Below, one piece after another: positions 2,940 through 36,434 of a DNA stretch of 37,377 bases. The stretch comes from Arthrobacter sp. AQ5-05 (GTDB lineage Bacteria; Actinomycetota; Actinomycetes; Actinomycetales; Micrococcaceae), in contig NZ_QMKQ01000033.1 of NCBI RefSeq assembly GCF_003287975.1, forward strand, positions 1-37,377, in the 5' to 3' direction. Position 1 is the stretch's first letter; each line of letters begins with the position of its first letter. Position numbers and translations under genes: made by a program. The notes beneath the pieces are model-generated. The model did no database searches, had not been told where the DNA came from, and saw nothing but the letters and a program-made list of their open reading frames with translations.

Positions 2940-3491
2940 GTGAGCGATAGCCCGCGCACCCTAGATACCTCCCGACGCTCGCTACGTGAGCGCTGGCGGA
3001 TGTCCGTTTATCTAGCCCGCTTCGACTGGCACCTCGAAGGATTCCTGCAAATCAAGGAACGTAAGACTGCTATCAGTTCACTGCGCAAAGAACTCCTTGC
3101 AGACCCGCGAGACATCGGTGTTAAGCTCCATGCCCTTGGCCCGCCCGCTGCCCTCGCAGCGCGTAGGGCTAGAGAAGGGACGCTTCGTCCCTTGTGGTCC
3201 ATCGGGATCATCGCTGCCGGCGTGGTCCTCTTTGTTTACTGGGGCCTCTTGTTGTCCTTTGCCGCCGGCATGCTTGCTGCGGTCAAGAACAGTGGGATTG
3301 CCGAGGCACACGCAACGTACTTGTTCGTCGATGTCTCGGCGTCCTCAAGCGCAGATGGGATCAGCATCGGATGGACCAGCCAAGGGGCGTGGCTCATCGT
3401 CTCGGCAGTCATCATTATTGGCGCCTTCCTCGTGGGAGCAAGACTCTGGCGACTCGCCAGCTCCATGCCACGCAAGGGCACTAGCGCATAG
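2940..3491 (+). CDS. Membrane protein with HAAS-like N-terminal domain
   Basis: The 183-residue protein has a cytoplasmic helical N-terminus (about 1-85) whose pattern (YLARFDWHLEGF, ISSLRKEL, LHALGPPAALAARRA) resembles the HAAS domain of small membrane proteins that are usually controlled by PadR regulators. Two hydrophobic segments follow (about 92-118 and 150-172). The GTG at 2940 is preferred over the in-frame ATG at 2925 because AGGGAGAG sits about 5 nt before it. It lies 16 nt upstream of the next small gene, so the two are probably one operon. No PadR gene is seen nearby. The domain match is by eye and could be wrong; the membrane location is secure. Confidence 0.5.
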   Translation: MSDSPRTLDTSRRSLRERWRMSVYLARFDWHLEGFLQIKERKTAISSLRKELLADPRDIGVKLHALGPPAALAARRAREGTLRPLWSIGIIAAGVVLFVYWGLLLSFAAGMLAAVKNSGIAEAHATYLFVDVSASSSADGISIGWTSQGAWLIVSAVIIIGAFLVGARLWRLASSMPRKGTSA

Positions 3492-3507
3492 ACAATGAGG
3501 GAGAAAA

Positions 3508-3741
3508 ATGACACAGGATTCGAACAGCATGGATAGCCGCAGCCGGAAAGTGTTTGGGAAGTGGGGTGCCGGATTCGCCGTTGGACTCGCAGTCGGAACC
3601 ATGTTGGGGATCGCGACGGGCAACATCGGTGTCGGTATAGCGCTCGGTGGTGGGATCGGTGTGGCGATGGCCGAGGCCTTCGCAGAAGATGACAAGCGCC
3701 GAAGGAAGCGTAGTACTGCCCTCAAGGACTTAGGCGGTTAA
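3508..3741 (+). CDS. Glycine-zipper mini-protein
   Basis: The 77-residue product has one hydrophobic stretch (about 20-58) dense in small residues with G-x-x-x-G spacing (GAGFAVGLAVGTMLGIATG, then GVGIALGGGIGVAMAEAF). It is bounded by basic residues at the N-terminus and by DDKRRRKR at the C-terminus. Such glycine zippers form hairpins or oligomers in membranes. GAGGGAGA lies 5-6 nt before the ATG, and the gene follows the HAAS-like membrane protein by 16 nt, so they are probably co-expressed. It shares its architecture with the mini-protein at 4263, suggesting distant paralogy. No enzymatic function is suggested. Confidence 0.6.
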   Translation: MTQDSNSMDSRSRKVFGKWGAGFAVGLAVGTMLGIATGNIGVGIALGGGIGVAMAEAFAEDDKRRRKRSTALKDLGG

Positions 3742-4237
3742 CGGGTACGTTCCCCTGGGCTCCCCGGCATCGTGCTAATTAGTCTGTTGGTCGTGCTCAT
3801 CATCTACCTACACGCCGTCGGCCGATCGCGTCCTGCGGCGTGCGTCCCGTTGCGTCGAGTAGGCTGCCTGCGAATTGAGAGTTCCGGCGATAACCGGAAC
3901 CACGGCTTTTTGTTTATCCATTTACAGGATCGTGGACACTCCCAGACAAACCACGTGAGCTTTCATTGCCCTCCCACGTTGCCTGTCCTGCAAATGCGTA
4001 TCCCTGGAAATCCTGGAGACCATGCCGTGTCCGGGGAGATGACCGGGACTGGCTTTGGTGGCAGTTCGCCGGCTTGACCTCTCAGCCCGAACGCGAATTC
4101 CATCATTGATCGGGACACCCAACCCGCCGGCTCCATCTCCAACAATGCCCTGTGTCAAAGGACGACACTGAAGATTAAAAACCACAGCACATGATTTTCG
4201 GTAAAGACCAACAATAGGCTTCATCTATCGCGAAGCG
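3742..4237. other. Intergenic region, no supported gene
   Basis: About 500 bp without a convincing gene. A hydrophobic stretch beginning VLISLLVVLIIYLHAVGR can be read from a GTG near 3769, but it runs into polar nonsense and lacks a ribosome binding site. It could be the tail of a lost membrane protein. A terminator-like hairpin lies inside (listed separately). Confidence 0.35.
3881..3912 (+). terminator. Possible Rho-independent terminator
   Basis: GTTCCGG (3881-3887) and CCGGAAC (3894-3900) form a perfect 7-bp stem around a CGATAA loop. CACGG and a run of five T follow (3906-3910). It lies about 140 nt beyond the glycine-zipper gene and would end that operon. The CACGG spacer between stem and T-run weakens the call. 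Confidence 0.4.
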
Positions 4238-17252: not shown

Positions 17253-17606
17253 GTAGACCTCGACCCAGGCCGAGTGCCGGCCCAGAAGCTGCATAACCCT
17301 CGCCGAGAGGTCCCCGTAGAGCTCGTAGTTGCTCGACTTGGCAACCAAGCCGGAAGTGGCCGTGGGCGCGAGTTTGAACCACGGGGCACCCATCTCCACG
17401 CCCAGCGCCTTGGCCTCGTCCGACCGGGCGACGGCGCAGCCATCGTTGTTGGACAGCACGATCACTGGCCGGCCGATCAGCGTCGGGTCAAAGGCCCGCT
17501 CGCAGCTGACGTAGAAGCTGTTCACATCCACATGGGCGATGTACTCCTCCGCGGGCGGAAATCTCCCGTTTAACGGAATAGCACCACTTACAGTCGATGG
17601 ATGCAT
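17253..17606 (-). pseudogene. umuC: Truncated umuC (Y-family DNA polymerase V subunit)
   Basis: From the ATG at 17604-17606, overlapping the end of umuD, about 118 residues of UmuC can be read: [49 protein letters not shown] and [12 protein letters not shown] up to [10 protein letters not shown]. The catalytic aspartate of VDVN is present, but the protein breaks off just before the second metal site, which should be SIDEAF. The frame then runs into unrelated sequence to a stop at 17178. About three quarters of the polymerase are missing, so it cannot copy damaged DNA. Confidence 0.8.
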
Positions 17607-18016
17607 GTTTCCGCCACTGCCCACACGCTCAGGGCGTCCCACTCCCCCACGACGATATCCGGGTACTCCGGATTTTCGGCCTGGAGCACCACGCCTTGCT
17701 CGGTGAGCCGAAGGCGCTTGACGGTCATTTCCCCGTCAAGGACCGCCACCACGATGGAACCATCCACGGGTTTTCGTGCCCGGTTGACGATGAGCTCGTC
17801 CCCGTCGGAAATTCCTGCCCCCTGCATGGAATCACCGCAGACGCGCACAATGAAGGTGCTCGTCTTGTCGTGGATCAGGTAGTCGGAGAGGTTGATTTCG
17901 CCGGAGAAATAGTCCTGTGCCGGTGACGGGTACCCGGCTGGAATTGAGGTTCCGGCAACCAGGAGAGGGATCGGTGGGCCTTCCACGCCTAGGGAACTTA
18001 TATTCTGAATACTCAT
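17588..18016 (-). CDS. umuD: UmuD-like S24 family self-cleaving SOS protein
   Basis: The 142-residue protein has the UmuD/LexA peptidase fold: cleavage site Ala27-Gly28 in [12 protein letters not shown], nucleophile Ser63 in CGDSM, and general-base Lys100 in MTVKRL. It lacks the LexA DNA-binding domain, so it is UmuD rather than a repressor. The ATG at 18014-18016 is preceded by AAGGTAAAAATT. Normally UmuD is cleaved when RecA filaments form and then joins UmuC to make the translesion polymerase; here umuC, which overlaps its stop, is truncated, so UmuD has no intact partner in the window. A half-site GAACATAT at 18036-18043 could be a LexA remnant but is not a full box. Confidence 0.85.
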
Positions 18017-18150
18017 AATTTTTACCTTATTTTTAGAACATATCTACCATCCTTAGGATACGTCCGTACCCAACGATTTGGTCCGCCCGGGTCTGGGGGA
18101 ACTTCTTGGACCACTCCTGGCAAGAACCTAGCGTCTCCAAATCCCTCGAG

Positions 18151-18240
18151 CATTCCGCGGGAAGCCCCCAACGGGCCAGGCTACAACCCTCAAGCCGAGG
18201 GCTAAACGGGCAATGACAGTTCCATTACTACCCAGTCCCC
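18151..18240. repeat. Diverged repeat unit A (partner at 18792-18882)
   Basis: This GC-rich stretch is about three-quarters identical by eye to 18792-18882, with an exact shared core CGAGGGCTAAACG. In both places an AT-rich cluster of TACAAG/CTTGTA palindromes lies to the right (18357-18405 and 18926-18998), so the whole arrangement, not just this segment, appears duplicated. No protein family is recognised in either strand. Confidence 0.5.
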
Positions 18241-18356
18241 TACTCGACGCCCCGAACGGCCCTAGTCCGCCCCCACCATGGCAGGAGTCGGAGCTGACAC
18301 TATCCAAGAAATCACGCCGGGGCGCGTCTGAGGGAAGTAGGTGGCACAACTTGCCT

Positions 18357-18405
18357 TACAATAAATACAAGCATTACAAGCATTAATTGTTTTACTTGTA
18401 ATACA
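18357..18405. repeat. AT-rich palindrome cluster 1 (centromere-like)
   Basis: The stretch contains two direct copies of ACAAGCATTA (about 18367-18386) and an inverted ACTTGTAATAC (about 18394-18404), with TTACAA before them. These half-sites match those in the clusters at 18926-18998 and 20228-20285 around parA. It is the most degenerate of the three. It is probably a binding site for the small RHH partition protein. Confidence 0.5.
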
Positions 18406-18600
18406 CGCATGGTGCACACGGTTGAGCACGACGCCCCGAGGCGCAAGAGGCAACCCGCAAGAACAAGCGCGCCAATCAGATCGAAAATCATAATCGGTGC
18501 GGCACGGGGGCCCGCGGCCGTCTCAAGACCAGTCTTTTCTCGGATGCTACCGCGCCGCTATCCGCACCCAGATTCTCCCCATGGCTAGCCGCGAGGCAAC

Positions 18601-18664
18601 CATACTCCGATGCGCGGCGGTCCGGTGAGGTGCAAGCTTTCTTCACCCCTCCTACCGGAGTATG
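18601..18664. repeat. Long-looped inverted repeat with inner hairpin
   Basis: CATACTCCG (18601-18609) is repeated inverted as CGGAGTATG (18656-18664), and shorter inner arms (GGTGA ... TTCACC) lie between them. The surrounding region, 18406-18780, has no gene I can support. A hairpin like this in a plasmid maintenance region could be an origin or nic-type element, but I see no conserved nick sequence. Confidence 0.3.
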
Positions 18665-18791
18665 CTCCACGCCCGGTGTCATCCACGCGTTCTCCGCATG
18701 GGTCTGGTTACGTCAATAGCAAGGTTATTTTGGTCGGAGCAAGGCTCTTTATCGTGCATTTCTATGGGACTACCGGCAGACACCAATGCCC

Positions 18792-18882
18792 CAGAATCCC
18801 ACGGAAGTACACTTCGGACCTGGCTGCAACTCTCAAGTCGAGGGCTAAACGTGCAATCCTGTTCCGTTGCTGTCCAGGCCCC
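18792..18882. repeat. Diverged repeat unit B (partner at 18151-18240)
   Basis: Second copy of the GC-rich segment, sharing CGAGGGCTAAACG and the flanking pattern TGGCTGCAACTCTCAAG versus AGGCTACAACCCTCAAG. It lies immediately left of palindrome cluster 2. Divergence between the copies suggests an old duplication. Confidence 0.5.
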
Positions 18883-18925
18883 GCATCGTCTAGGTCGCTG
18901 AATCCTCGAGCGACACTCACCTTAA

Positions 18926-18998
18926 AAAGTATTGCCAGTAATACAAGTATTACTTGTCTTACTGGCAATACTTTCCTTACAAGGCTTGTAAGGAAAGT
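18926..18998. repeat. Palindrome cluster 2: nested perfect palindromes beside parAB
   Basis: Two strong palindromes abut. The first has 16-bp perfect arms, AAAGTATTGCCAGTAA (18926-18941) and its complement (18959-18974), around a second perfect palindrome ACAAGTATTACTTGT (18943-18957). The next has 14-bp perfect arms centred on G18984 (18970-18983 and 18985-18998) and contains TTACAAG-G-CTTGTAA. The shared half-site TACAAG/CTTGTA recurs at 18357-18405 and upstream of parA. It ends about 57 bp beyond the stop of the RHH gene, so it could also act as a terminator for the parAB transcript. Best read as partition-protein binding sites. Confidence 0.65.
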
Positions 18999-19054
18999 GA
19001 AGCAATGAACCAAACGCACACGCCCGACGGGCTTTCTGCCGCTTACTTAGGATT

Positions 19055-19417
19055 TCATTTTTGGAACGGACGCCCAGATCGAAACGCTCCAGATAGAGGT
19101 CCAATACGTTCACCGTTATTGAACTCGTCAGCTAGTCCAGCAAGTTTTTCTTCTATCGCCGCTGAGATGAGGCTAGCAAGAGAACGATAACCTGATTGGT
19201 GTGCTTGAGACATCAACACTGCCGCACGAGCTCGATCAATAAGCTCAACATCGGCGCTAAAAGTCACCGGCTTCTTTGTAGTAACTTTTTCGACCGGGGG
19301 AGTCGTCTCCTTACCGGCAGATTCTTGCGTTGTTCCCGTAAAGATTTCTTCTCGTTTGACTTCTAGTTGTGGCCGGACTGTCGCTGCACCTGGTCGCTTG
19401 CGTTCGGGCCTACTCAC
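19055..19417 (-). CDS. Small ribbon-helix-helix partition protein (ParB-type partner of ParA)
   Basis: The 120-residue protein has a disordered, charged N-terminus (about 1-48) and a C-terminal domain beginning KKPVTFSADVELIDRARAAV, followed by GYRSLASLISAAIEEKL. The pattern of one beta strand and two helices is that of RHH DNA-binding domains. It starts at a GTG that overlaps the parA stop (GTGA), the normal order for type Ib partition operons, where the second gene is a small centromere-binding protein. The expected partners are ParA and the palindrome clusters on either side. It is not a classical large ParB: no HTH/CTPase domain is present. Confidence 0.75.
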   Translation of the reverse strand: MSRPERKRPGAATVRPQLEVKREEIFTGTTQESAGKETTPPVEKVTTKKPVTFSADVELIDRARAAVLMSQAHQSGYRSLASLISAAIEEKLAGLADEFNNGERIGPLSGAFRSGRPFQK

Positions 19418-20211
19418 TTGGTCACCTCAATCTTGGTAAGGAACGAAACTGCCAGTTCATCAAACATTTCAGTCATTCTTTTTCCAGCTACAGTCTTGTA
19501 TTCCGAAACCGATGCCCCAGCAGCGGCTGCTTCTTTGATAACGGCCCTCTCGGGGATCACCGGTTCCAGGATTTCACTTTCGCCAACCAACTCACGGAGA
19601 CCATCCATCTGGAATACGTGTTCGTTGAGGTTCTTGTGAAGGTTGACGATCACACCGGCAAATCTAAGGGCTGGGTTTGCGATGTCTTCGGCGTGTTCTT
19701 CCACAAACGATCTAAAGCGCGTCATTCCTTCAACCGAATCAAATTCCGGCTGGGTGACGCACACTGCCGCGTCAGATGCAGCCAGTGCCATTTGCGTTAG
19801 GTGGCCCAGCGAGGGGGGAGTGTCAATGAGAACTATGTCGTACGTATCAGTCCAGCCCGCCAGCGCTTTGCGCAACCTCCGAACGGCTCCGACTGTCGCG
19901 GCTTCGCTAATCCTGTTCTCCAAGTCGACTCGCGCGGGTAGCAAATCGACACCAATACCGCTATCAAGCAAATCGGCTTCTACGAGGGCGCCAGCCCCAT
20001 TGCCTTCATGGGCGTCACGAAGTGCATCACCGATGGTGGGTGAAGGATTTTCATAGTTGTCTTCCCACCCTAGCTGCCGGCTTGCGTTTCCTTGGGGGTC
20101 CAAGTCAACAACCAGCACGGAACGGTTAGCCCTGGCAAGTGATGCAGCAAGCTGTACCAGAATCCCGGTCTTGCCGACCCCGCCCTTATTATTGCCAATC
20201 GTGATTATCAC
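19414..20211 (-). CDS. parA: ParA-type partition ATPase
   Basis: The 265-residue protein opens directly with the deviant Walker A box NNKGGVGKTG (7-16), has Walker A' VVDLDPQGN (34-42) and Walker B IVLIDTPPS (126-134), and lacks an N-terminal HTH, so it belongs to the short ParA class (type Ib). The residue after GKT is Gly rather than the usual Thr. It starts at GTG 20209-20211 after GAAAGG. ParA binds DNA in its ATP form and moves plasmids attached through the RHH partner. The palindrome cluster at 20228-20285 sits directly upstream, as expected for an autoregulated promoter. Confidence 0.9.
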   Translation of the reverse strand: MIITIGNNKGGVGKTGILVQLAASLARANRSVLVVDLDPQGNASRQLGWEDNYENPSPTIGDALRDAHEGNGAGALVEADLLDSGIGVDLLPARVDLENRISEAATVGAVRRLRKALAGWTDTYDIVLIDTPPSLGHLTQMALAASDAAVCVTQPEFDSVEGMTRFRSFVEEHAEDIANPALRFAGVIVNLHKNLNEHVFQMDGLRELVGESEILEPVIPERAVIKEAAAAGASVSEYKTVAGKRMTEMFDELAVSFLTKIEVTK

Positions 20212-20227
20212 GGAGAACCTTTCGTAG

Positions 20228-20285
20228 TACTTGCATTAAGTGTATTGCTTGTTACACAAGTAATACAAGCATTGCTTGTGTTAGT
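20228..20285. repeat. Palindrome cluster 3 upstream of parA (operator/centromere)
   Basis: Within 58 bp there is a perfect 15-bp palindrome ACAAGCATTGCTTGT (20265-20279), which differs only at symmetric positions from ACAAGTATTACTTGT in cluster 2. Beside it is a near-perfect 23-bp palindrome centred on TAC (20243-20265; TATTGCTTGT and ACAAGTAATA). Its position 20-75 bp before the parA GTG fits a promoter-operator bound by the RHH protein. Confidence 0.65.
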
Positions 20286-20454
20286 GATGAGCTGTGGGTC
20301 GTGGAAAGGCAGTGCTTTCGGCGGGAAGCCATCTACAAACCCGACAGTGAGGACCATCGGTACAGTGGTTGGCGGTATGCGTGTGGATATGGTCCTCGCT
20401 GTCGGATTCGATCAAGCAAACGCACAGCAGCAATGCAGCTCTTATGGAGACTAT

Positions 20455-21300
20455 TCACCATTCAATGTCTGTCGAGGCATCCAGCGGCTTCCTTTCGGAT
20501 ATTTCCCGTACGGCTGTTAGTTGGCCGGCTTGTTTGACGTTCTGGGGGAAGTGGAGCTGGGTGCGTTGTTCGAGCTCGTCCATGGTGATTTGGTAGACCC
20601 GGAACTCGTCCAGGGCCAAAAGTGCCCGCAGATGGTCAAGGTCCTGGGTCAGCAAGAACGCCCGAGCTTTCAGTGTGCCTTGGTTTTGGTAGGCCAGTAG
20701 TTTCCAGTATTCGGAGGGTAGGGCGACGCCACGGTATATGCGGTCGTCGGGGTGGAGGACCGGGCCGCCAAAGACGCTGGCTCGCAGGTCTTGGACTGCG
20801 ACGTCTTCGTAGAGGGCGTTTTCGAGGCGGCCCCAGATTCCGTTTTGTTTGCTTTGGTTGAAGTCGTCCATTTGTGGGGTGATGTTGGTGTAGTAGAAGG
20901 AGTCTTGGTTGGCTTGTTGGGCTTCGGGGAGGGGTCCCCAGGTGAGGTCGGCGCGTCGGGCGATGTGGCCGCGGTCCAGCCGGTTGCCGCTGTACAGTTC
21001 GTTGCCGATTTGGGAGTCGGAGGCGAGTCGTGGGTCTTTGGTGAAGGTGAGGTTAGTGCGGCTGAGTAGTTTGATGGTGGCTCCGTCGATGTTCCAGGCG
21101 ACCCAGCGGGCGAAGCGCCGGGTTTTGCTCAGGGACAGGGAGAAATGCGTGTAGGGGATGACCTCGGTTTCTTCCCAGAGGACTGCATCGTCTTGGATGC
21201 TGGGGTCCAAGGTGGGGACTTCGATGCGGGAACCTAGAAAATCCGGGTCGTACCCAGTGCGGGGGGCTTTTGGGATGGATTTGTGTGTATCGGTGGTCAT
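20455..21300 (-). CDS. NUC1-type DNA/RNA non-specific endonuclease
   Basis: The 281-residue protein carries the beta-beta-alpha-metal active site DRGHIARR (109-116, His112 as general base) followed by NITPQMDDFNQS (139-150), whose asparagines bind the metal ion. This is the NUC1/Serratia nuclease/EndoG family; the usual DRGH is followed here by IARR instead of xxxP. The ATG at 21298-21300 is chosen because homology begins soon after; the open frame upstream is compositional. No signal peptide is seen, so the enzyme is cytosolic or exported by another route. It lies between parA and the Rep-like gene, reading the same way. A role in plasmid competition, defence or transfer is conjecture. Confidence 0.85.
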   Translation of the reverse strand: MTTDTHKSIPKAPRTGYDPDFLGSRIEVPTLDPSIQDDAVLWEETEVIPYTHFSLSLSKTRRFARWVAWNIDGATIKLLSRTNLTFTKDPRLASDSQIGNELYSGNRLDRGHIARRADLTWGPLPEAQQANQDSFYYTNITPQMDDFNQSKQNGIWGRLENALYEDVAVQDLRASVFGGPVLHPDDRIYRGVALPSEYWKLLAYQNQGTLKARAFLLTQDLDHLRALLALDEFRVYQITMDELEQRTQLHFPQNVKQAGQLTAVREISERKPLDASTDIEW

Positions 21301-21695
21301 CCTGGTCGCCGCTTTCCTCGATAGCAAGTGTGCACCGCATCTAATGCTGATGCCCTTACGGTAGGCCCTGCCACTGGGTTTTCGTAGTGTCGATGTTCTT
21401 CTTTGCTGTCGATTTCGCACGTGATGTTTCTGCCCGGGAGCCTGGCTTGCCACGTCGCGAGCCACGGTGAGGCCATCGTGAAAACTATCTTCAGGGTAAG
21501 CCGAGCCTTCGTGCTCGAGCCTTGGATCCCGTGGACTGGTTGTCATGGCTGAAAAAACCCAGCGTCCCCTGCGGGTGGGCCGGGTCGGTGGGTCTTGGGC
21601 CATGGGGAACTGTGCCGAAGGGTCCACTGCTTTTACGGTCGTTACGGCGCGCGGCAAAACCGTAGCGTCGGATATTCCATTTTTCACTAACCACC
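21301..21695. other. Intergenic region between Rep-like gene and nuclease gene
   Basis: About 395 bp downstream of the Rep-like gene. Imperfect inverted sequence TACGGT ... ACCGTA flanks a GC-rich core at about 21636-21666. On the minus strand a six-T run follows GACGCTGGG (about 21552-21566), which may help terminate the rep transcript. Long open frames here are compositional. No iteron series is visible. Confidence 0.35.
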
Positions 21696-22838
21696 CTATT
21701 TCTGCCGGTTTTGTCGTAGGGCTCTGATTTGGGCGAGGGCGACGATTTTGGCGGGGGAGTCTTGGCCAATGCGGGTGGCGCGTTCTGCTCGTTCTTGGAG
21801 TAGTCGTGCGGTGTTGCGGGCGGCTTGGGCGCGGCGTTCGAGTGCTTCGGCGTTGGTGCGTTGGTCGCGGGAGCGTAGGGGTTCTCCGGTGTGGGTGCGC
21901 CACGCCGCTAGGCGTGTGCGCATCCATCCTCGGAGGCGTGGTGCGTAGTCGCTGGTGGGGATTCCTGAGTAGGGCCAGGGGGTTCCGTTGGGTTGGAAGT
22001 CTAGTGCGTGGTGTAGGTCTGCGACGGTCCAGCCGGCTAGGAGGAAATCGCGAATGGTGGAGGCGACGTCTTTGGTGCTCATGGGGCGTAAGAGGAAGAT
22101 TCGGCGACGTAGCTCCGAGGCTGCGGCAAGACGCTGCTTTTTCGATGCTGTCGTTTTGTGGGTGGGCCAGTTCAGTTCTGGACGATAGGGGGTTTGGTGG
22201 GCAGATGCGGCGTAGCCGCCTGATGTGTTTTCAGCCGGCGTAGCCGGTCCGTCAAGGTTTGTTTCTCGTGCGCGTGTATGGGTTTCTTTTAAGTTCTTAA
22301 GGTGAGAACCGCCTAAGGCGGGAGGGGTGCCAAATTCATCCACACTGTCGGAGCTGGTTGGTGTGATGAGGGTGAGGGGTGAGGGGGTGCACAGGACGTA
22401 GACGGCGGCTTCGTTGGTTTGTTTTCCGTCGGGGCCTTTGGTGGCGTAGGGGGCGCTGCGGCCGCTGGCTACGACGCCGAGTAGTCCCCAGTTTTGGAGG
22501 GTTTTGAGGGCTCGTGCGATGGTTCTGCGGCTGACGCCTACGATTTCGGCGAGGTAGTCCCAGCCGGGGCGGGTGGTCATGGTTTCGTAGTCTGCGCGTT
22601 GGATGAGGGTGCGCAGGACGTTGTGGAGTGTGCGCTGCGCGGAGGCGTAGCGGCGGGCGTATTGGGGGTGTTCGAGGAGGGCGCGTAGGACGTGGGTGCC
22701 GTGTGCGGCTCGTGTGGCGCCTGGGGGTACGGCTCGTAGGACGGTGTTGCGGTCCGATTCTTTGTGCCGAGAGACACGACGCGTGCGGCGCGTGAGGGTT
22801 GTTGGTTCTTGGGCAAGACTGTGTAAAATAGCAGACAC
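21696..22838 (-). CDS. Winged-helix plasmid replication-type protein (Rep-like)
   Basis: The 380-residue protein has a basic N-terminus. A helix-turn-helix/winged helix follows at about 92-125 (DYLAEIVGVSRRTIARALKT then LQNWGLLGVVASGRS), then a variable middle, and a C-terminal domain with FLLAGWTVADLHHALDFQPNG (about 263-283) and YAPRLRGWMRTRLAAW (about 295-310). Actinobacterial plasmid replication or HTH proteins of this architecture are common beside parA. GTG at 22836-22838 follows ACAGGAGCC, a strong ribosome binding site. No nickase tyrosine motif is seen, so theta-type initiation or a regulatory role is more likely than rolling circle. The replication function is inferred from place and fold, not proven. 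Confidence 0.55.
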   Translation of the reverse strand: MSAILHSLAQEPTTLTRRTRRVSRHKESDRNTVLRAVPPGATRAAHGTHVLRALLEHPQYARRYASAQRTLHNVLRTLIQRADYETMTTRPGWDYLAEIVGVSRRTIARALKTLQNWGLLGVVASGRSAPYATKGPDGKQTNEAAVYVLCTPSPLTLITPTSSDSVDEFGTPPALGGSHLKNLKETHTRARETNLDGPATPAENTSGGYAASAHQTPYRPELNWPTHKTTASKKQRLAAASELRRRIFLLRPMSTKDVASTIRDFLLAGWTVADLHHALDFQPNGTPWPYSGIPTSDYAPRLRGWMRTRLAAWRTHTGEPLRSRDQRTNAEALERRAQAARNTARLLQERAERATRIGQDSPAKIVALAQIRALRQNRQK

Positions 22839-29313: not shown

Positions 29314-30036
29314 ATGTCGGATATGAAGAACGAGCGGGTGGCTAACTCGCAATGGAAAAAAGCTACGTTGTGGGCATCGGCTATCGTGTTGGTTCTCATT
29401 CTCGGCATGGCCTTACTTGTCATTTTCACCGGTCCCAAGAAGGAGCCGGCCCCTGTAGCCGGCTCCCCGGCACCCTCCACCGGTGCGGCCACCACACCCC
29501 CGGCAGAAGAGGGCTGCAATGTGCCGGTGGGGGATACTTCTTCGACTCCGAAGATGCCTGATGATCTGCGTTGGGAAGCGAAGGATGGGTGGACGTGGCC
29601 GGTCTCGGACACCTACGGACCCACCCAACGTGAAGGTGAATTCGGGGTCTGCTATACACGCACCGCGATGGGTGCGGCACTGATGATGGTCAACGCAAAC
29701 ACCGCAATGAACACCGTGGGCTTCAAAGAAGCCGTCAAGCAATACATCTTGGATTCACCAGGCAGGGACGTACTTCTGGCCAAACCAGACGAAAGCAACG
29801 AACCTATTTCATACTCGGGTTTCATCGTCGATTCTTTTACCCCGGATAACGCCCAAGTAACACTCGTTTTCTCAACACCTGATACCTCGACAGGGTTCAC
29901 TGGTCTACCTTTGTCCTTCCGTTGGGTTGATGGGGACTGGAAGCAAGTATTGCTGGATGACGGGTCCATGTTCCGTGGGCAAGCCATTGAACCTCAGCGT
30001 GGAGACTTCGTGGAATGGACTGGTACCAATGGCTGA
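29314..30036 (+). CDS. Single-pass membrane protein of the secretion operon
   Basis: The 240-residue protein has a short cytoplasmic N-terminus, one helix (about 20-41, LWASAIVLVLILGMALLVIF), a Pro/Ala linker and an outside domain (about 60-240) with two Cys (in EEGCNVP and FGVCYTR) that may form a disulfide. The architecture is like VirB8/TcpC-type components or their actinobacterial substitutes, but the fold is not recognisable. The ATG at 29314 is listed; ATG 29323 is an alternative. Its last 8 nt overlap the start of the VirB6-like gene, so translation is coupled. Confidence 0.6.
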   Translation: MSDMKNERVANSQWKKATLWASAIVLVLILGMALLVIFTGPKKEPAPVAGSPAPSTGAATTPPAEEGCNVPVGDTSSTPKMPDDLRWEAKDGWTWPVSDTYGPTQREGEFGVCYTRTAMGAALMMVNANTAMNTVGFKEAVKQYILDSPGRDVLLAKPDESNEPISYSGFIVDSFTPDNAQVTLVFSTPDTSTGFTGLPLSFRWVDGDWKQVLLDDGSMFRGQAIEPQRGDFVEWTGTNG

Positions 30037-31609
30037 GTGCAATGGTGGCTGGGCTAAGTGCAAGCTCCAGGAGGCTGCGCAAGATGCCTTGGTTCAAATG
30101 GCTGAAGCAATGGTGGGTGGCTGGGATTCGATGATGAAGGAATTCCTGACCTCTTGGCTGAATGTCGGCCTGCTCGTGGACTTGGAGGCAGGGTCCATCC
30201 AGTGGCTGACCGCCCAGCTGCAAGTGATCAGTATTTTCCTCACCGTTCTGGGCATCATGTTCGCCGCCATCTGGACGATGATCCACTACCGGGGGGATAA
30301 GGCAATCAAGCTGGCCCAAACCATGGCCAAGGTCCTCGTCGTCACCACACTCGGTGCCGCAGCGGTGCAGGTCATCATTGCCGGTGGAGATGCCTTCTCC
30401 ACCTGGATTCTGGACAGTGCCGGAATCACCACCGACGCCCGACAAATCCCCCTGACGATTGCGGCGGCAAATCCGGCCATCGCGATCTTGGGCGGCATTT
30501 TCGGTGTCATCGCCACCATCATCCAATGGGGCATCATGCTCGTTCGCTCCGCACTGCTCCCGCTGCTGGTCGGCGTGTGGCCGGTCGCGGCCGCAGCGTC
30601 GATGATCGGTGGGGCTGACCAAGCGTTCTCGAAGATCACCAACTGGATTATCGCCTTTGCCCTGTATAAGCCGGTGGCCGCAATCATCTATGCCTATGCA
30701 TGGAAAACGAAGTCCGGGGATGAAGGACTCGGCGGCATCATCAACGGGCTGGTGCTCATTGCTCTGGCCGTGGTTGCTTTGCCAGCGATGATGCGACTGC
30801 TCGCTCCAAGTACGTCCGCGTTGGGTGGCGCCAGTGGCGGGGGCATGGCCCTGGCCGGTGGTGCCGCCTTGGTTGGTGCCGGTGTTGCCGCTGGTGCTGC
30901 GGTGCTTTCCGGTGGCGGCACTGCCGCTGCCGGTACTGCCGGTGGTGCGGCCAAGATGGCTGGCGGTGCAGGTGCCGCCGGTTCATCTGGCACCGCTACC
31001 AGTTCAGCTGGTACTGCGGCTGGTTCGTCGGGAACCGCTGATGGCGCTGGCGCGTCCGGAGCGGGTGGAGGCGATGAGCCCACTGGCGGAGGTAGTGGCG
31101 GAGGCGGAACTGGTGGCTCGGATTCAGACTCTGATGCTGCCGGTGGTTCTTCCGATGCAGCATCCGAGGCGGTCGGCGGGGATGCCGACGGTGGGGATAG
31201 TTCGGCGGGTGGAACTGCCGGGGAAGCCATGGGAGCCGAAGGTGCTGAGACAAATTCCGGTCAAGATTCTGCCCCGGGGGCGGGTGCAGCGTCAGGTGCT
31301 GCAGGCGGGGATACCGCTGGCGGACCCATCGCTCCTGCCGGTTCCACAGGTAATGCAGATAGTCCGATGGCGGCCGATACCTCGGCATCAGGGACCAGCG
31401 AACCCACGAGTACGGACAGTGGTACTGCAGGGTCCGCTGCCGGGACCAACTCTCCAACCGGGGCACCGGAAGCCTCTGCCCCGGTTGCCGGTTCTAAGAA
31501 CACTTCACCCAAGGCCAAACAAGCAGGACATGCCGCAGCCGCCTCGATGACACAAGCAGTGGCCGATGGGGCCAAGGACGCTGATGGAAAGGACGTGATT
31601 GGCGAATGA
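30029..31609 (+). CDS. VirB6/TrbL-like channel protein with long low-complexity tail
   Basis: The 526-residue protein has about six hydrophobic helices in its first half (about 64-88, 98-117, 144-168, 171-200, 206-225 and 234-255), including SALLPLLVGVWPVAAAASMI, in the manner of VirB6/TrbL inner-membrane channel proteins. From about residue 262 to 495 the sequence is almost only Ala, Gly, Ser, Thr, Asp and Pro. The ATG at 30029 overlaps the previous stop; the longer frame upstream is antisense-like and unneeded. The tail would reach into the cytoplasm or wall and is likely disordered. It overlaps the SCO6880-type gene by 4 nt. Confidence 0.7.
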   Translation: MAECNGGWAKCKLQEAAQDALVQMAEAMVGGWDSMMKEFLTSWLNVGLLVDLEAGSIQWLTAQLQVISIFLTVLGIMFAAIWTMIHYRGDKAIKLAQTMAKVLVVTTLGAAAVQVIIAGGDAFSTWILDSAGITTDARQIPLTIAAANPAIAILGGIFGVIATIIQWGIMLVRSALLPLLVGVWPVAAAASMIGGADQAFSKITNWIIAFALYKPVAAIIYAYAWKTKSGDEGLGGIINGLVLIALAVVALPAMMRLLAPSTSALGGASGGGMALAGGAALVGAGVAAGAAVLSGGGTAAAGTAGGAAKMAGGAGAAGSSGTATSSAGTAAGSSGTADGAGASGAGGGDEPTGGGSGGGGTGGSDSDSDAAGGSSDAASEAVGGDADGGDSSAGGTAGEAMGAEGAETNSGQDSAPGAGAASGAAGGDTAGGPIAPAGSTGNADSPMAADTSASGTSEPTSTDSGTAGSAAGTNSPTGAPEASAPVAGSKNTSPKAKQAGHAAAASMTQAVADGAKDADGKDVIGE

Positions 31610-33129
31610 GTAACAACGTCGCACCGGAGAAGGTAGCGCAAGACAAGTTCGGGAACTGGCTCAAGCCAACTGCCCCGGGGCTTTTTGGGCTGAGTCTCGG
31701 TGCCTTGGCCGTCTCGGGCACCGGAGTGGTTCTGGTGCTGCTGGCCTTGGTCCAGGAAGCGTGGATGCTGGCGCTGGCGGTCCTGCTGATCACGTTTGTG
31801 GTGGTGTTCTTTGGCCTGGTGCGCTTTGGTGGCACCACGATCCTGGGCAAGGTCACCGACCGGCTCTCGTTGGCCGGTCGGAACCAACGCGGTGAATCGT
31901 TCTATGTCACCGGGCCCTTATCGACGTTGCCTCGGGAAGCTGCTCAGCGGTTGCCCGGTGCCCTGGTGAACGTGGATACCCTCTCCGGGCTTGATGGGCT
32001 GAACCGTGACTACACCTTGCTGCACCACAAGTCCGTGGGGAAGATTGCTGCCGTGTTCGGTTGCACCCCGGACGGGGCAGCCATGCAGGAACAAGCCGTG
32101 CTGAACAACCAGGTCGCCCACTACGGTTCCTGGATTTCCTCGTTGAGTGTGGATGCAGGTCTTTGTGGGGCCACCGTCGTGGTGGACTCTGCTTCCGAGT
32201 CCTCCGCCGGCACCTGCCAAGCCGTGCGTGAAGATGTGGCTCCCAACGCCCCGGTCTTCGCCAAAAGGGTTTTGGATGAAGCGGTGGGCACCTTGCCTGC
32301 CCGCTCCTCGGTCCTGAACGTGTATTCCACCCTGGTGTGGGATGCCAAGGCGCTCGGGGCCACCGAGAAGGACATTTCCCCGGCGGTGGCCGAGGTCGCC
32401 TCGAGGCTTCCCCAACAGTCCCAGATGCTCTCCCGCGCCGGGGCGGGGGCGCCCAGGCCCCTGGTCGAATCCGAGCTGGCCGAGATCGCGCATCTGGCCT
32501 ACCAGCCGGCACGGGACCAGGAACTGGCCCTGGACGCATTGATGGGCTTGGGTGCGAATCGTTCCTGGGACCAGGCCGGCCCGGAGTTCTTCGATGATTC
32601 CCGCGGCCGGGTCGTCTTCCACGACGGGGTGGCCTCGATGACGTTGATGATGACCATTCCGCCCGAATCCCACATCACCGCCAGGTCCTTTGATGCGCTC
32701 TTCGGGCCCAATGCGAAATTCCTGCGCAAGCGGGTGGCGATCATGTATCGTCCGGTGGATCCCGGGACGGCAGCCAAGACGGTGAACCGGTTGGTGCGCA
32801 ACGCGGATTGGAAGATCAGTACCCGCAAGGGCCGTGCGACCTCGTTCGATACCAAGAACAAGGCAGTGGCCGAGAAGACCGAACTGGAACTGGCCCAAGG
32901 CGCGCGCCTGTCGATGTTCTCCCTGATGGTCACCGTGACCTTTGAGGCGAACCAGGAGGCGTACCGCGATGCGCTGAACCAGATCAAGTCCCTGATGGGT
33001 CAGTTATTGATGCCCTACCGCTTTGTGGAGCACGCCGGCTCTGCCGCGTTCCACACCACGCTGCCGTTCGGGGTGCTTCCGTGGACGTACAACACCACCC
33101 CGCTGTGGCTTGAAGGAGTCCTGTCATGA
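31606..33129 (+). CDS. SCO6880 family type IV secretion protein
   Basis: The 507-residue protein has two adjacent N-terminal helices (about 24-46 and 50-68), as in PrgI/VirB3-type proteins. A long soluble region resembles the N-terminal domain of VirB4 (for example GRNQRGESFYVTGPLSTLPR, DYTLLHHKSVGKIAAVFGC). I recognise it as the actinobacterial SCO6880 family. It lacks a P-loop; the ATPase domain is encoded separately in the next gene, which it overlaps by 4 nt. The pair therefore looks like a VirB3-VirB4 fusion that has been split before the motor domain. It would anchor the ATPase at the membrane. Confidence 0.75.
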   Translation: MSNNVAPEKVAQDKFGNWLKPTAPGLFGLSLGALAVSGTGVVLVLLALVQEAWMLALAVLLITFVVVFFGLVRFGGTTILGKVTDRLSLAGRNQRGESFYVTGPLSTLPREAAQRLPGALVNVDTLSGLDGLNRDYTLLHHKSVGKIAAVFGCTPDGAAMQEQAVLNNQVAHYGSWISSLSVDAGLCGATVVVDSASESSAGTCQAVREDVAPNAPVFAKRVLDEAVGTLPARSSVLNVYSTLVWDAKALGATEKDISPAVAEVASRLPQQSQMLSRAGAGAPRPLVESELAEIAHLAYQPARDQELALDALMGLGANRSWDQAGPEFFDDSRGRVVFHDGVASMTLMMTIPPESHITARSFDALFGPNAKFLRKRVAIMYRPVDPGTAAKTVNRLVRNADWKISTRKGRATSFDTKNKAVAEKTELELAQGARLSMFSLMVTVTFEANQEAYRDALNQIKSLMGQLLMPYRFVEHAGSAAFHTTLPFGVLPWTYNTTPLWLEGVLS

Positions 33130-34634
33130 AACCGGTACAGCACATGCGCACCTCCCGGGGCTTGGCCGGGTTTGGTGGTGGCCGGTGGGGCAAGGTGCCC
33201 CAGCCTCCGCAGTGGTATTCGACCTCGGCACAGTTGCCGGGGGTCTACCCCTTCGCCGCGGGCACCTCGAGGCCGAACATCGGGGCTCCCTTGGGCCGGG
33301 ACATGCATGTGGGAACCGCAGTGTGTGGGGATCCGCAGACCTGGTACCGCTCGGGCCTGATTTCCTCGGCCTCGATGATGCTCTTTGGCCTCAATGGCAA
33401 CGGCAAGTCCTCCCTGGGAGGGCGGTTCATGTATTCGATGGCCGCCCGCGGCATCACCCCGGCGGTGTTCGACCCCATCAAGAATGAACACGGGGATGCC
33501 GTGGCGGCCATGGGCGGCAACGTGATCCGCGTCGGCCCGGACAGCACCGACAAGATCAACCTCCTCGACCTTGGTGCCCTCGGGGATGCCGCCAAAAAAA
33601 TTGGCGGCGTCCTGGGAGCGGAGATGCACCGCCAGGCCGTCGGCAAGGCCGTCGATGCGGTGTCCCTGGTGGTCCAGATCAGCCGCGGGACGCCCTTGTC
33701 GGACAGTGAGGACGCCGCCCTGGCCGAACTGATCCGCTCGGTCATCAGTCGCAATGACCACCCGTGGATGGGGGATCTGCTGACCGCGTTCAAGAATCCA
33801 CCACCGGAAGTGCTCTCGGCCACCGTGTGCCAAAACGCAACGCAGTTCACCGACGAGTACCGGGCACTGCATTTGTCCTTGCGGGCGGTGATGTCCGGGC
33901 AAATGGGGTCCCTGGTCGGTGGGCGTGAAAGCGTGCGACTGGAAGTCGGGAACCCCGGCGGATTCTGCTTCGACACCTCCTCGATCCCGGAGTCCAACAC
34001 CAAGCTGCTTTCGGCGGCGATGTTGGCGACCTGGAGCATCGGGTTTTCCTCCATCGACGCCCACTACGAGCTCTCCCGCCATGACCCCACCATCGCCTGG
34101 GGCGGGTACTTCGCGATGCAAGATGAGTTTTGGTATCCGATGCGAGCGTGTGAGGGGATCATCGACCGCGTGGACCGCATTGGTCGCACCAACCGCGGCA
34201 AAGGCGTCTGCGAACTGAAAATCACGCACTCACCCAAGGACTTCCTGTCCCTGCCCAATGCGAAGGACCGGGCCACGGCCAAGGGCTTCACCGAACGTTC
34301 CGGCGTGCTGGGCATCATGGCTCTCTCCCGTGAAGACCTCCACGATCTGAGCGAGGTTCAGCCGTTGAACGAACGGGAAATAGATACCGTGGCTGGCTTC
34401 AATGCCCCTCCGTCGTGGAAGCAGGAACGGTCCGCCGATGGGCGTCCGGTGCCACCTCCGGGGGCGGGAAAGTTCATGTTGAAGATTCCCGGCCGGATCG
34501 GCATTGCCGTGCAGATGACCCTGACGGAAACCGAACGCCAAAAGCACATCACCGACGAACGCAGCGTGAGTCATAACCACTTGGGAAACAGCCAACTGAT
34601 GAGCAACCAAACCAGGGGAAGGACGGTGGGCTAA
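33126..34634 (+). CDS. VirB4-like conjugation ATPase (motor domain)
   Basis: The 502-residue protein has a Walker A box GLNGNGKSS (88-96) and Walker B YFAMQDEFW (328-336, Asp333/Glu334), with the FDPIKNEHGD stretch (115-124) typical of VirB4/TraG-type hexameric motors. An Arg-rich segment follows the Walker B, and the C-terminus is extended and polar (from about 440). It powers assembly of, or transfer through, the channel. Its start overlaps the SCO6880 gene (ATGA) and its stop abuts the coupling-protein start (TAAATG). Intact by motif inspection. Confidence 0.8.
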   Translation: MKPVQHMRTSRGLAGFGGGRWGKVPQPPQWYSTSAQLPGVYPFAAGTSRPNIGAPLGRDMHVGTAVCGDPQTWYRSGLISSASMMLFGLNGNGKSSLGGRFMYSMAARGITPAVFDPIKNEHGDAVAAMGGNVIRVGPDSTDKINLLDLGALGDAAKKIGGVLGAEMHRQAVGKAVDAVSLVVQISRGTPLSDSEDAALAELIRSVISRNDHPWMGDLLTAFKNPPPEVLSATVCQNATQFTDEYRALHLSLRAVMSGQMGSLVGGRESVRLEVGNPGGFCFDTSSIPESNTKLLSAAMLATWSIGFSSIDAHYELSRHDPTIAWGGYFAMQDEFWYPMRACEGIIDRVDRIGRTNRGKGVCELKITHSPKDFLSLPNAKDRATAKGFTERSGVLGIMALSREDLHDLSEVQPLNEREIDTVAGFNAPPSWKQERSADGRPVPPPGAGKFMLKIPGRIGIAVQMTLTETERQKHITDERSVSHNHLGNSQLMSNQTRGRTVG

Positions 34635-36434
34635 ATGAGTGCACCAAATCGCAAGGGAACTTCCGGGATGACCGGCCAGGCTGTGCTGCCGTTCGTCCTG
34701 GTCGGCATCATCGTCCTGGTCCTCGGTGGTGGTTGGGTATCCCTCCAGCTCGGTTCACGCCTCGCCGGGAACCCTGCACCACCAACCGGGCTATCGGCCT
34801 TGTTGGAAGGCTTGCTGAGGGGCACCGTGAGCTGGCCGGTACAAGCCACCGTGATGGCCATCGTTCTGGTGGTCGTGTTGATAGCCCTCGGCGTCGTGAT
34901 TGGCCTGCTGCTCAGTCGTCGCGGACTAGGTGGGAAGAAGCCACGAGTGGACAAGGCTGCACACCATATGGGCAAGGGCAAGGACATTGCCGCCTACACC
35001 CACAAAGGGGCCACCAAGACAGCACAACGTCTCGGGGTCCAAGGCTCACCCGGTGTGTTTGTGGGCAACGTGGTGGCCACAAGCCAACCGTTCTACCAGT
35101 CCTGGGAAGACTTGTCCCTGGATATCTGGGGGCCTCGCGTGGGTAAGTCAGCCTCCCGAGTGATCCCGGCAATCCTTGATGCCCCCGGCGTCGTGGTGTC
35201 GACCTCGAACAAGCGCGATGTCGTGGATGCCACCCGTGGTGTTCGCTCGGCCAAGGGCCCGGTGTGGATCTTCGATCCGCAGAAGATCGCCCAGGAAGAA
35301 CCCACCTGGTGGTGGAACCCGCTCTCTTATGTCACCGATGAGGAGAAGGCCGCGAAGCTCACCCATCATTTTGCGGTGGCCTCCCGAACCCCCGGCGCGA
35401 AGTCCGATGCGTACTTCGATCCCAAGGCCGAAGACCTCATCGCTTCCTTGTTCTTGGCCGCTGCGTTGGGCAAGCTGCCGATCACCGAGGCGTACCTGTG
35501 GATCACCAGCCAGTCCTGTAAGAAGGCCATCGACCTGCTCCACGGGCATGACTACGAGCTGCAAGCCGCTGGCCTGGCCTCGACCATGAACCTGGCCGAC
35601 AAGCAGAAGGACGGCATTTTCGGCACTGCCGAGAAGATGGTCCAGTGCCTGAAATCCAAGAACACCCTGCGGTGGATTGTCCCGACTCGAGGAGGTTCGG
35701 TGCTCGGTGACAGGCGCCCACAGTTCGACCCCAAGGCCTTTGCCGCATCCACCGAAACCCTCTATGTCCTGTCCATGGAAGGCGTGGGAACAGCCGCACC
35801 GCTGACCACCGCATTGACGGTCGCCGTGGCCGAAGCCTTGGAAGAACGCGGGGCACGGATGGGGGGCCGGCTGGAAGTCCCGGCTGTTTTTGCCCTCGAT
35901 GAATTGGCGAACGTGGTCCGGTGGGCGGCACTGCCTGACCTGTTCAGCCACTACGGTTCCCGCGGAATCATCGTCATGGCAATCCTGCAGTCTTGGTCCC
36001 AGGGCGTGGAGCTGTGGGGTGAGCCGGGGATGCGTAAAATCTGGTCCGCCGCCAACGTGGTGGTCTATGGGGGCGGGGTGAAGGAAGATGCTTTCCTGCG
36101 CACCCTCTCGGACCTGATTGGCGATTATTCCTACAGCAACGTTTCCCAGTCCCATGGACGCGGCGGGGCCAGCAGTTCGCATCAGGAGGGCAAGGAACGT
36201 ATCTTGGACGTTTCGGACCTGACGGAGATGGAACGTGGCCGTGCCGTGGTCTTTGCTTCCGGTGCCCGCGCCACATTGGTCAAGACCCGCCCGTGGTGGA
36301 ATACCCCGCATAAGGATGCCGTCAATGAATCCATAGCCCGGTACGCGCCAAAGGCCGTGCCGGTCATGGCATCTGCATCCCCGGCAGCAGAGAATCCTTG
36401 GATCACTGCAGCAAGGGAAACAGGCAATGGATAA
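34635..36434 (+). CDS. VirD4/TraG-type coupling protein
   Basis: The 599-residue protein has two N-terminal transmembrane helices (about 17-36 and 71-93), Walker A GPRVGKSAS (166-174) and Walker B VFALDELANVV (418-428), the LDExAN box that marks type IV coupling proteins. It delivers the relaxase-DNA complex, or proteins, to the channel. The Thr/Ser-Ala exchange after GKS (SA rather than ST) is slightly unusual. AAGGACGG precedes the ATG at 34635. The next gene overlaps its end by 8 nt. The absence of a relaxase beside it implies that gene lies outside the window or that the element is mobilised differently. Confidence 0.9.
   Translation: MSAPNRKGTSGMTGQAVLPFVLVGIIVLVLGGGWVSLQLGSRLAGNPAPPTGLSALLEGLLRGTVSWPVQATVMAIVLVVVLIALGVVIGLLLSRRGLGGKKPRVDKAAHHMGKGKDIAAYTHKGATKTAQRLGVQGSPGVFVGNVVATSQPFYQSWEDLSLDIWGPRVGKSASRVIPAILDAPGVVVSTSNKRDVVDATRGVRSAKGPVWIFDPQKIAQEEPTWWWNPLSYVTDEEKAAKLTHHFAVASRTPGAKSDAYFDPKAEDLIASLFLAAALGKLPITEAYLWITSQSCKKAIDLLHGHDYELQAAGLASTMNLADKQKDGIFGTAEKMVQCLKSKNTLRWIVPTRGGSVLGDRRPQFDPKAFAASTETLYVLSMEGVGTAAPLTTALTVAVAEALEERGARMGGRLEVPAVFALDELANVVRWAALPDLFSHYGSRGIIVMAILQSWSQGVELWGEPGMRKIWSAANVVVYGGGVKEDAFLRTLSDLIGDYSYSNVSQSHGRGGASSSHQEGKERILDVSDLTEMERGRAVVFASGARATLVKTRPWWNTPHKDAVNESIARYAPKAVPVMASASPAAENPWITAARETGNG

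Follow-up and report, generated by a model that had tools for sequence, protein, structure and literature searches.

The window, that is, the whole stretch of 37,377 bp that was analysed, carries parA and parB on the minus strand together with three repeat arrays, named A, B, and C, which lie on both sides of the two genes. The genes, the arrays, and the two short palindromes within the arrays are as follows.

parA: 19414-20211, minus strand; a 265-aa short Walker-type ParA ATPase (Pfam AAA_31, 7e-35, residues 2-181)
parB: 19055-19417, minus strand; a predicted 120-aa RHH-type centromere-binding protein (from the translation and PDB 3no7)
array A: 18357-18410; six contiguous 9-bp cells, 340 bp upstream of a umuD-like gene
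array B: 18924-18995 (eight contiguous 9-bp cells) and the end of a 14-bp arm, to 18998; 56 bp downstream of parB
array C: 20228-20281; six contiguous 9-bp cells, the nearest of them 16 bp before the parA start codon
15-bp palindrome in array B: 18943-18957; a box, 3 bp, and an inverted box, exactly ACAAGYATTRCTTGT
15-bp palindrome in array C: 20265-20279; a box, 3 bp, and an inverted box, exactly ACAAGYATTRCTTGT

The parA product also matches Soj/ParA relatives in the PDB, and no HTH domain is among the Pfam matches of this 265-aa protein. The parB gene starts with a GTG codon and shares 4 bp with the end of parA. Its 120-aa product is matched neither in Pfam (E 0.1) nor in NCBIfam (E 0.01), and its sole significant PDB match is 3no7, with E=0.019 as a single sequence. 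A profile of 12 sequences, comprising ParB and 11 relatives found from it, matches 3no7 with E=1.5e-16, the next match having 2.7, and a wider profile of 19 sequences, part of them retrieved by means of the 3no7 fragment, gives E=1.8e-22. The PDB entry is titled 'Putative plasmid related protein', and we take it to be the RHH domain of the ParB of pCXC100. An AlphaFold model of ParB built with 3 sequences was poor (pLDDT 57.6; helices at residues 53-72 and 80-99, no strand), and a fold search with this model returned no match at E below 0.001; the model was discarded as evidence for its low quality.

The umuD-like gene (17588-18016; NF007621, E=9e-42) adjoins the partition locus, and since umuD also stands beside par in the plasmids pA40H2 and pA58H3, a conserved par-umuD block is suggested. 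Beside parA, positions 20455-21927 encode a 490-residue protein in which a long N-terminal part precedes a DNA/RNA non-specific endonuclease domain (PF01223, 7e-42) at the C terminus. Three large plus-strand ORFs at 29927-34634 have no Pfam match at E 1e-4 and are followed by a TraG/TraD-like coupling protein at 34635-36434, resembling a conjugation region. No overlap between the contig ends was seen for any length tried, which leaves the plasmid unclosed.

A strict 9-bp register in arrays A, B, and C

The organizing rule of all three clusters is a strict register of 9 bp with the cell consensus T-RCWWGY-AW. In order, the cells of array A are TACAATAAA TACAAGCAT TACAAGCAT TAATTGTTT TACTTGTAA TACACGCAT, those of array B are AAAAAGTAT TGCCAGTAA TACAAGTAT TACTTGTCT TACTGGCAA TACTTTCCT TACAAGGCT TGTAAGGAA, and those of array C are TACTTGCAT TAAGTGTAT TGCTTGTTA CACAAGTAA TACAAGCAT TGCTTGTGT. 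When the cells of the three arrays are pooled (n=20), the box positions agree with the consensus in 20 (R), 16 (C), 18 (W), 18 (W), 18 (G), and 17 (Y) cells; cell position 1 is a T in 18/20, and 10/20 cells match RCWWGY exactly. Both box orientations are present in the window arrays, the outer cells of array B deviate from the consensus, and the GC content of the arrays is 26-33% versus 60% in the contig.

An earlier sequence-only reading of this DNA had described the clusters as palindromes, and the palindromes do exist, but the strict 9-bp register was overlooked. The two exact 15-bp palindromes that it reported are both present, and their pattern is above chance: allowing ≤3 mismatches, the window contains 13 matches versus 1.15 expected, the largest number in 100 shuffles being 4, and of these 13, the three clusters account for 10, the other 3 lying at 29735-29957. 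The 16-bp arms (18926-18941/18959-18974) and the separate 14-bp-arm palindrome (18970-18998) were likewise found perfect, and the former extend to arms of 24 nt with 96% complementarity. The degenerate cluster noted at 18357-18405 is real and fits the 9-bp register as array A, while the cluster upstream of parA is present but larger than claimed, spanning 20228-20281. The long perfect palindromes sit in array B. Because the 15-bp unit consists of a box, 3 bp, and an inverted box, and because the box RCWWGY is nearly self-complementary, the nested-palindrome look is a by-product; the 'nested-palindrome architecture', which had been held to set the locus apart from known small-RHH systems, follows from phased near-palindromic boxes in mixed orientation. 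Beyond array C, a 20-nt inverted repeat lies at 20338-20408, with copies 90% complementary and 31 nt apart.

Lone boxes are not special; the phased array is. Exact ACAAGY/RCTTGT boxes number 38 in the window; the clusters hold 10 of them, and the other 28 lie outside. In the 4.65-Mb assembly, TACAAGYATTRCTTGT with ≤2 mismatches occurs at 5 places, all in the clusters, but this count alone is not an enrichment because the reversed control pattern is commoner (9 versus 5). On the forward strands of pA40H2 and pA58H3, ACAAGYNNTRCTTGT with ≤2 mismatches occurs at 4 and 3 places, respectively, 2 of them at par in each plasmid, and its reversed control occurs at least as often. The exact-pattern counts in the genome and the two plasmids, not being above the reversed-pattern control, were dropped as evidence. 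As for the frequency of the motif away from parA on related plasmids, to which the sequence-only reading had pointed, the single palindrome does not exceed its reversed control, and it is the phased array that decides.

A box matrix was trained only on the upstream arrays of three other loci, namely pA40H2, pA58H3, and L034, and was used to scan for runs of five cells over the whole 37,377-bp window and, on pA40H2 and pA58H3, over the par loci only. At period 9, the top three sites in the window are arrays A (41.0), C (41.0), and B (32.4), followed by a fourth site at 9.6; across 30 shuffled windows, the highest score was 19.0. At periods 6-8 and 10-14, the maximum in the window was ≤17.4. Only A and B are independent finds of the matrix, because C is closely related to two of the three arrays used for training. 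Within the window, the 9-bp register is confined to the par locus.

Arrays in close relatives and across the ParB family

The ParB proteins of pA40H2 (L006) and pA58H3 (L007), 95.8% identical, are the closest relatives, and arrays B and C are kept in both plasmids. Array B is present twice in pA58H3 and twice in Paeniglutamicibacter gangotriensis (L062). Among six copies of B, two of which are identical, 2/32 columns are variable at cell positions 3-6 and 12/40 elsewhere; for the copies of B and C together, the variable columns are 5/56 versus 20/70 (p=0.007), a pattern that is supporting evidence only, because the position grouping was chosen after the columns had been seen. In L034, with 63% ParB identity, the upstream array has a similar register, TACATGTAA TACTTGCAT TAGTTGCTT TACCTGCAT TACAATAAA GACAAGCAA; this array was located by reading and belonged to the matrix training set. 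A B-like array stands ~670 bp beyond the L034 parB, with a matrix score of 24.2. Where pA40H2 and pA58H3 align, the stretch that holds array A has no match, save a 35-bp box likeness in pA58H3, and a 69-bp repeat, 80% identical, lies on either side of array A.

At ~3019-4001 of P. gangotriensis contig NZ_AOCK01000014.1, only residues 179-265 of parA were matched in the 8.4-kb locus, and this remnant stands, by reading, directly behind a resolvase-like gene; parB and both copies of B remain. Between these copies, a 14-residue stretch resembles the parB end, an indication that this end was part of the duplicated unit.

The family sample comprised the window and 35 of 63 loci (L001-L063). The 28 omitted were repeat fetches, loci in which no parA was found, L033 and L062 (partial parA), and L036, L041, and L045, which are the same or near-same matches as L035, L023, and L044. 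The 36 upstream regions minus L050, which was too short, left 35 scored; downstream, 31 regions were scored, parB being unmatched in 5 loci. The 76 controls were up to 3 random 300-bp segments per locus from outside the par region, short loci giving fewer or none. Direct-repeat autocorrelation alone gave weak signals because the box orientation is mixed, and it was replaced by an orientation-free array score.

Upstream of parA, period 9 was the unique best of periods 7-14 in 23/35 loci versus 12/76 control segments (p=4e-7), and its score was reached by ≤2/100 shuffles in 20/35 loci versus 5/76 controls. Without the near-duplicates L006, L007, and L017, period 9 was the unique best in 20/32 loci and passed the shuffle test in 17/32, the related pairs L011/L035, L024/L059, L024/L049, L049/L059, L040/L052, and L057/window (over 537 bp) being retained, and L034 being counted here, as among the 23/35 and the 20/35, for the wrong reason, as the score picked a GC-rich stretch and not the true upstream array. 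The control segments also favour 9 and 12, with a tie-shared best of 21.0 and 16.6 of 76. In 9/35 upstream regions (L016, L019, L020, L021, L049, L053, L057, L058, and L061), more than 10/100 shuffles reached the period-9 score. The box sequences vary between loci, including ACAAGC, GCAAGG, ACCTCT/AGAGGT, CTATTAG, and GCAATA, and mixed box orientation is found in several relatives as well. Upstream of parA in L011 (Arthrobacter agilis pAAG24-152) and L035, ACAAG boxes stand at 7 or 14 bp in TACAAGCCTTGTTT units, and the step may have shifted from 9 in this one branch of the ParB family.

In the 300 bp after parB, the unguided score showed a weak excess of period 9 (10/31 versus 12/76 controls, p=0.07), and the unguided shuffle test gave 7/31 versus 5/76 (p=0.04). 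A guided test used the upstream boxes of each locus: 21 loci were picked for a good upstream array (20 with ≤2/100 shuffles, and L051 with 3), and L037 and L052 were untestable, leaving 19. A downstream 9-phased array was found in 7/19, with 0/60 shuffles reaching each score; these are the window, pA40H2, pA58H3, a Streptomyces plasmid (L013), pAAG24-85 (L018), L044, and L051. By eye, the arrays of L044 and L051 are the weaker ones, and L051 also beats its shuffles at 3/4 other periods. The downstream score was not above all 60 shuffles in the other 12/19, among which L034 is a method miss. Because downstream arrays occur in 7 of the 19 tested loci, two-sidedness is recurrent but not universal.

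On balance, we lean towards the view that the RHH ParB family in actinobacterial plasmids fixes the 9-bp step, and that the sequence and orientation of the boxes and the number and side of the arrays drift. This suggests that what the centromere family conserves is the spacing of the RHH dimers and not the sequence of the boxes. If the register is indeed fixed and the boxes drift, incompatibility groups would arise via box change, with the filament geometry unchanged. In addition, 9-bp phased arrays beside parA could serve as a centromere finder for actinobacterial plasmids in which ParB lies outside Pfam and NCBIfam.

Candidate centromere function and other readings of the arrays

The locus is very probably a partition module of type Ib that pairs ParA with an RHH ParB, as in pCXC100, with arrays A, B, and C as its putative centromere. 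By analogy with omega, one RHH dimer would dock on each near-palindromic 6-bp box, and neighbouring dimers would bind cooperatively along a single winding track. The 9-bp step would set successive dimers ~309 degrees apart (10.5 bp per turn), and either box orientation would keep the same track, because the step is fixed and the box is near-palindromic. Array C would be both operator and centromere. As it begins 16 bp before the parA start, array C should cover or adjoin the parAB promoter, and repression of parAB by ParB bound there would be a natural consequence of this position. A scan for sigma-70-like promoters over 17900-20500 found 0 versus 1.6 expected, so the promoter under array C is placed by its position only. 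Beyond parB, arrays B and A would provide additional centromere capacity, variable in copy number, and the loaded arrays would stimulate ParA-ATP on the nucleoid, by which plasmid copies would be distributed. The two-sided centromere proposed earlier is plausible: putative ParB sites flanking parAB are the reading that fits best, and downstream arrays recur, though in only some relatives.

The position and folding of array B bring up another function, namely that it serves parAB mainly as an intrinsic terminator or a 3' stabilizing hairpin and resembles the upstream boxes only secondarily; we consider this quite improbable. The minus-strand RNA of array B folds at -41.7 kcal/mol (z -7.2; 0/200 shuffles as low), a short T run (UUUUU) ends the second stem just downstream of parB, and one stem pair, columns 45/77, is altered on both sides in copy 1 of P. 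gangotriensis. However, the covariation in B amounts to 1 two-sided change, with the stem kept in 96.7% of cells and 102/500 shuffles as high, and the terminator scan, whose rule admits loops of 3-8 only, did not return B but did return the palindrome of array C, with 3 sites versus 2.4 expected, which is near chance. Array B also shares ACAAGY boxes and its type of 9-bp register with C and A, a register that a terminator would not explain; the substitutions in B track the 9-bp cell, and the B-like array of L034, by reading, has its palindrome centre offset from the boxes and is without a T run. Array B may be both a terminator and a centromere array.

We hold it rather unlikely that only array C works as centromere and operator, with B and A as duplication relics of little function. 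The 12 of 19 loci mentioned above, including the method miss, the degenerate outer cells of B, and the stretch of array A, which is without a counterpart in the aligned parts of pA40H2 and pA58H3, all fit such relics; yet B persists in pA40H2, pA58H3, and P. gangotriensis, with two copies in each of the latter two, L034 carries a counterpart of it, and the matrix score of array A equals that of C (41.0). That the arrays are replication iterons or regulator operators unrelated to ParB seems to us barely credible: iterons are likewise phased repeats, and a Pfam scan of 26 window ORFs named no replication initiator, but the arrays directly adjoin parAB, and the loci of the ParB family show an excess of the 9-bp register upstream of parA, with boxes that differ in sequence. 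The reading of the arrays as a putative partition centromere is the one compared with known systems below.

Comparison with known partition systems

The type Ib features found at the locus are a short ParA without an N-terminal HTH, a small downstream ParB, and contiguous 9-bp repeats beside the operon. The locus does not fit an HTH-ParB (ParB/parS, CTPase) system, the window ParB having 120 aa and no match in Pfam or NCBIfam at the thresholds given above. The centromere of pCXC100 from Leifsonia xyli subsp. cynodontis is composed of contiguous 9-nt repeats, and the window resembles it in the actinobacterial type Ib operon, in the RHH ParB, which belongs to the same family by profile, and in the 9-bp repeat step. 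According to the available part of a review, pCXC100 has direct repeats only, and type Ib centromeres generally have direct and inverted repeats. Compared with these direct repeats, the window has mixed orientation, three arrays, and sites on both sides of the operon.

The window is similar to pB171 par2 in having sites on both sides of parAB, where parC1 and parC2 flank the pB171 genes; the pB171 repeat sequences probably differ from the window boxes. ParG structures are present in the PDB, and in the PDB search they were matched by neither the window ParB nor its profile. In the case of ParF/ParG of TP228, the accessible part of the literature describes a small RHH protein with direct and inverted repeats, and in both respects the window is alike.

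For omega of pSM19035, the available parts of two papers describe 7-bp repeats in mixed orientation, parS at three promoters, and a need for at least 4 contiguous repeats for full ParA activation (PMC9499535, PMC5016525). The omega/delta system and the window share an RHH ParB, contiguous short repeats in mixed orientation, and several sites, which are promoter-linked in omega, whereas the step is that of the 7-bp WATCACW heptad in the former and 9 bp in the latter. Tandem WATCACW (two heptads, ≤3 mismatches) is at chance level in the window, with 8 versus 8.15 expected, and of the 4 single heptads there, none are 7 bp apart. For the Antarctic Arthrobacter plasmids pA40H2 and pA58H3, the available part of the paper gives ParA, ParB, and a predicted cis-site parS (its Table S4) as published (PMC6305408). 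At least among the literature matches listed for pCXC100, RHH ParB, Leifsonia, and Arthrobacter, the titles and abstract openings contain no description of the 9-bp register.

The claim that the locus is unlike known systems is not supported, being countered also by the mixed orientation in omega/pSM19035, the 9-nt repeats of pCXC100, and the two-sided sites of pB171, and the earlier interpretation is, overall, partly supported. The window carries a putative centromere of a recognizable bacterial type, with a 9-bp spacing that recurs beside many related operons.
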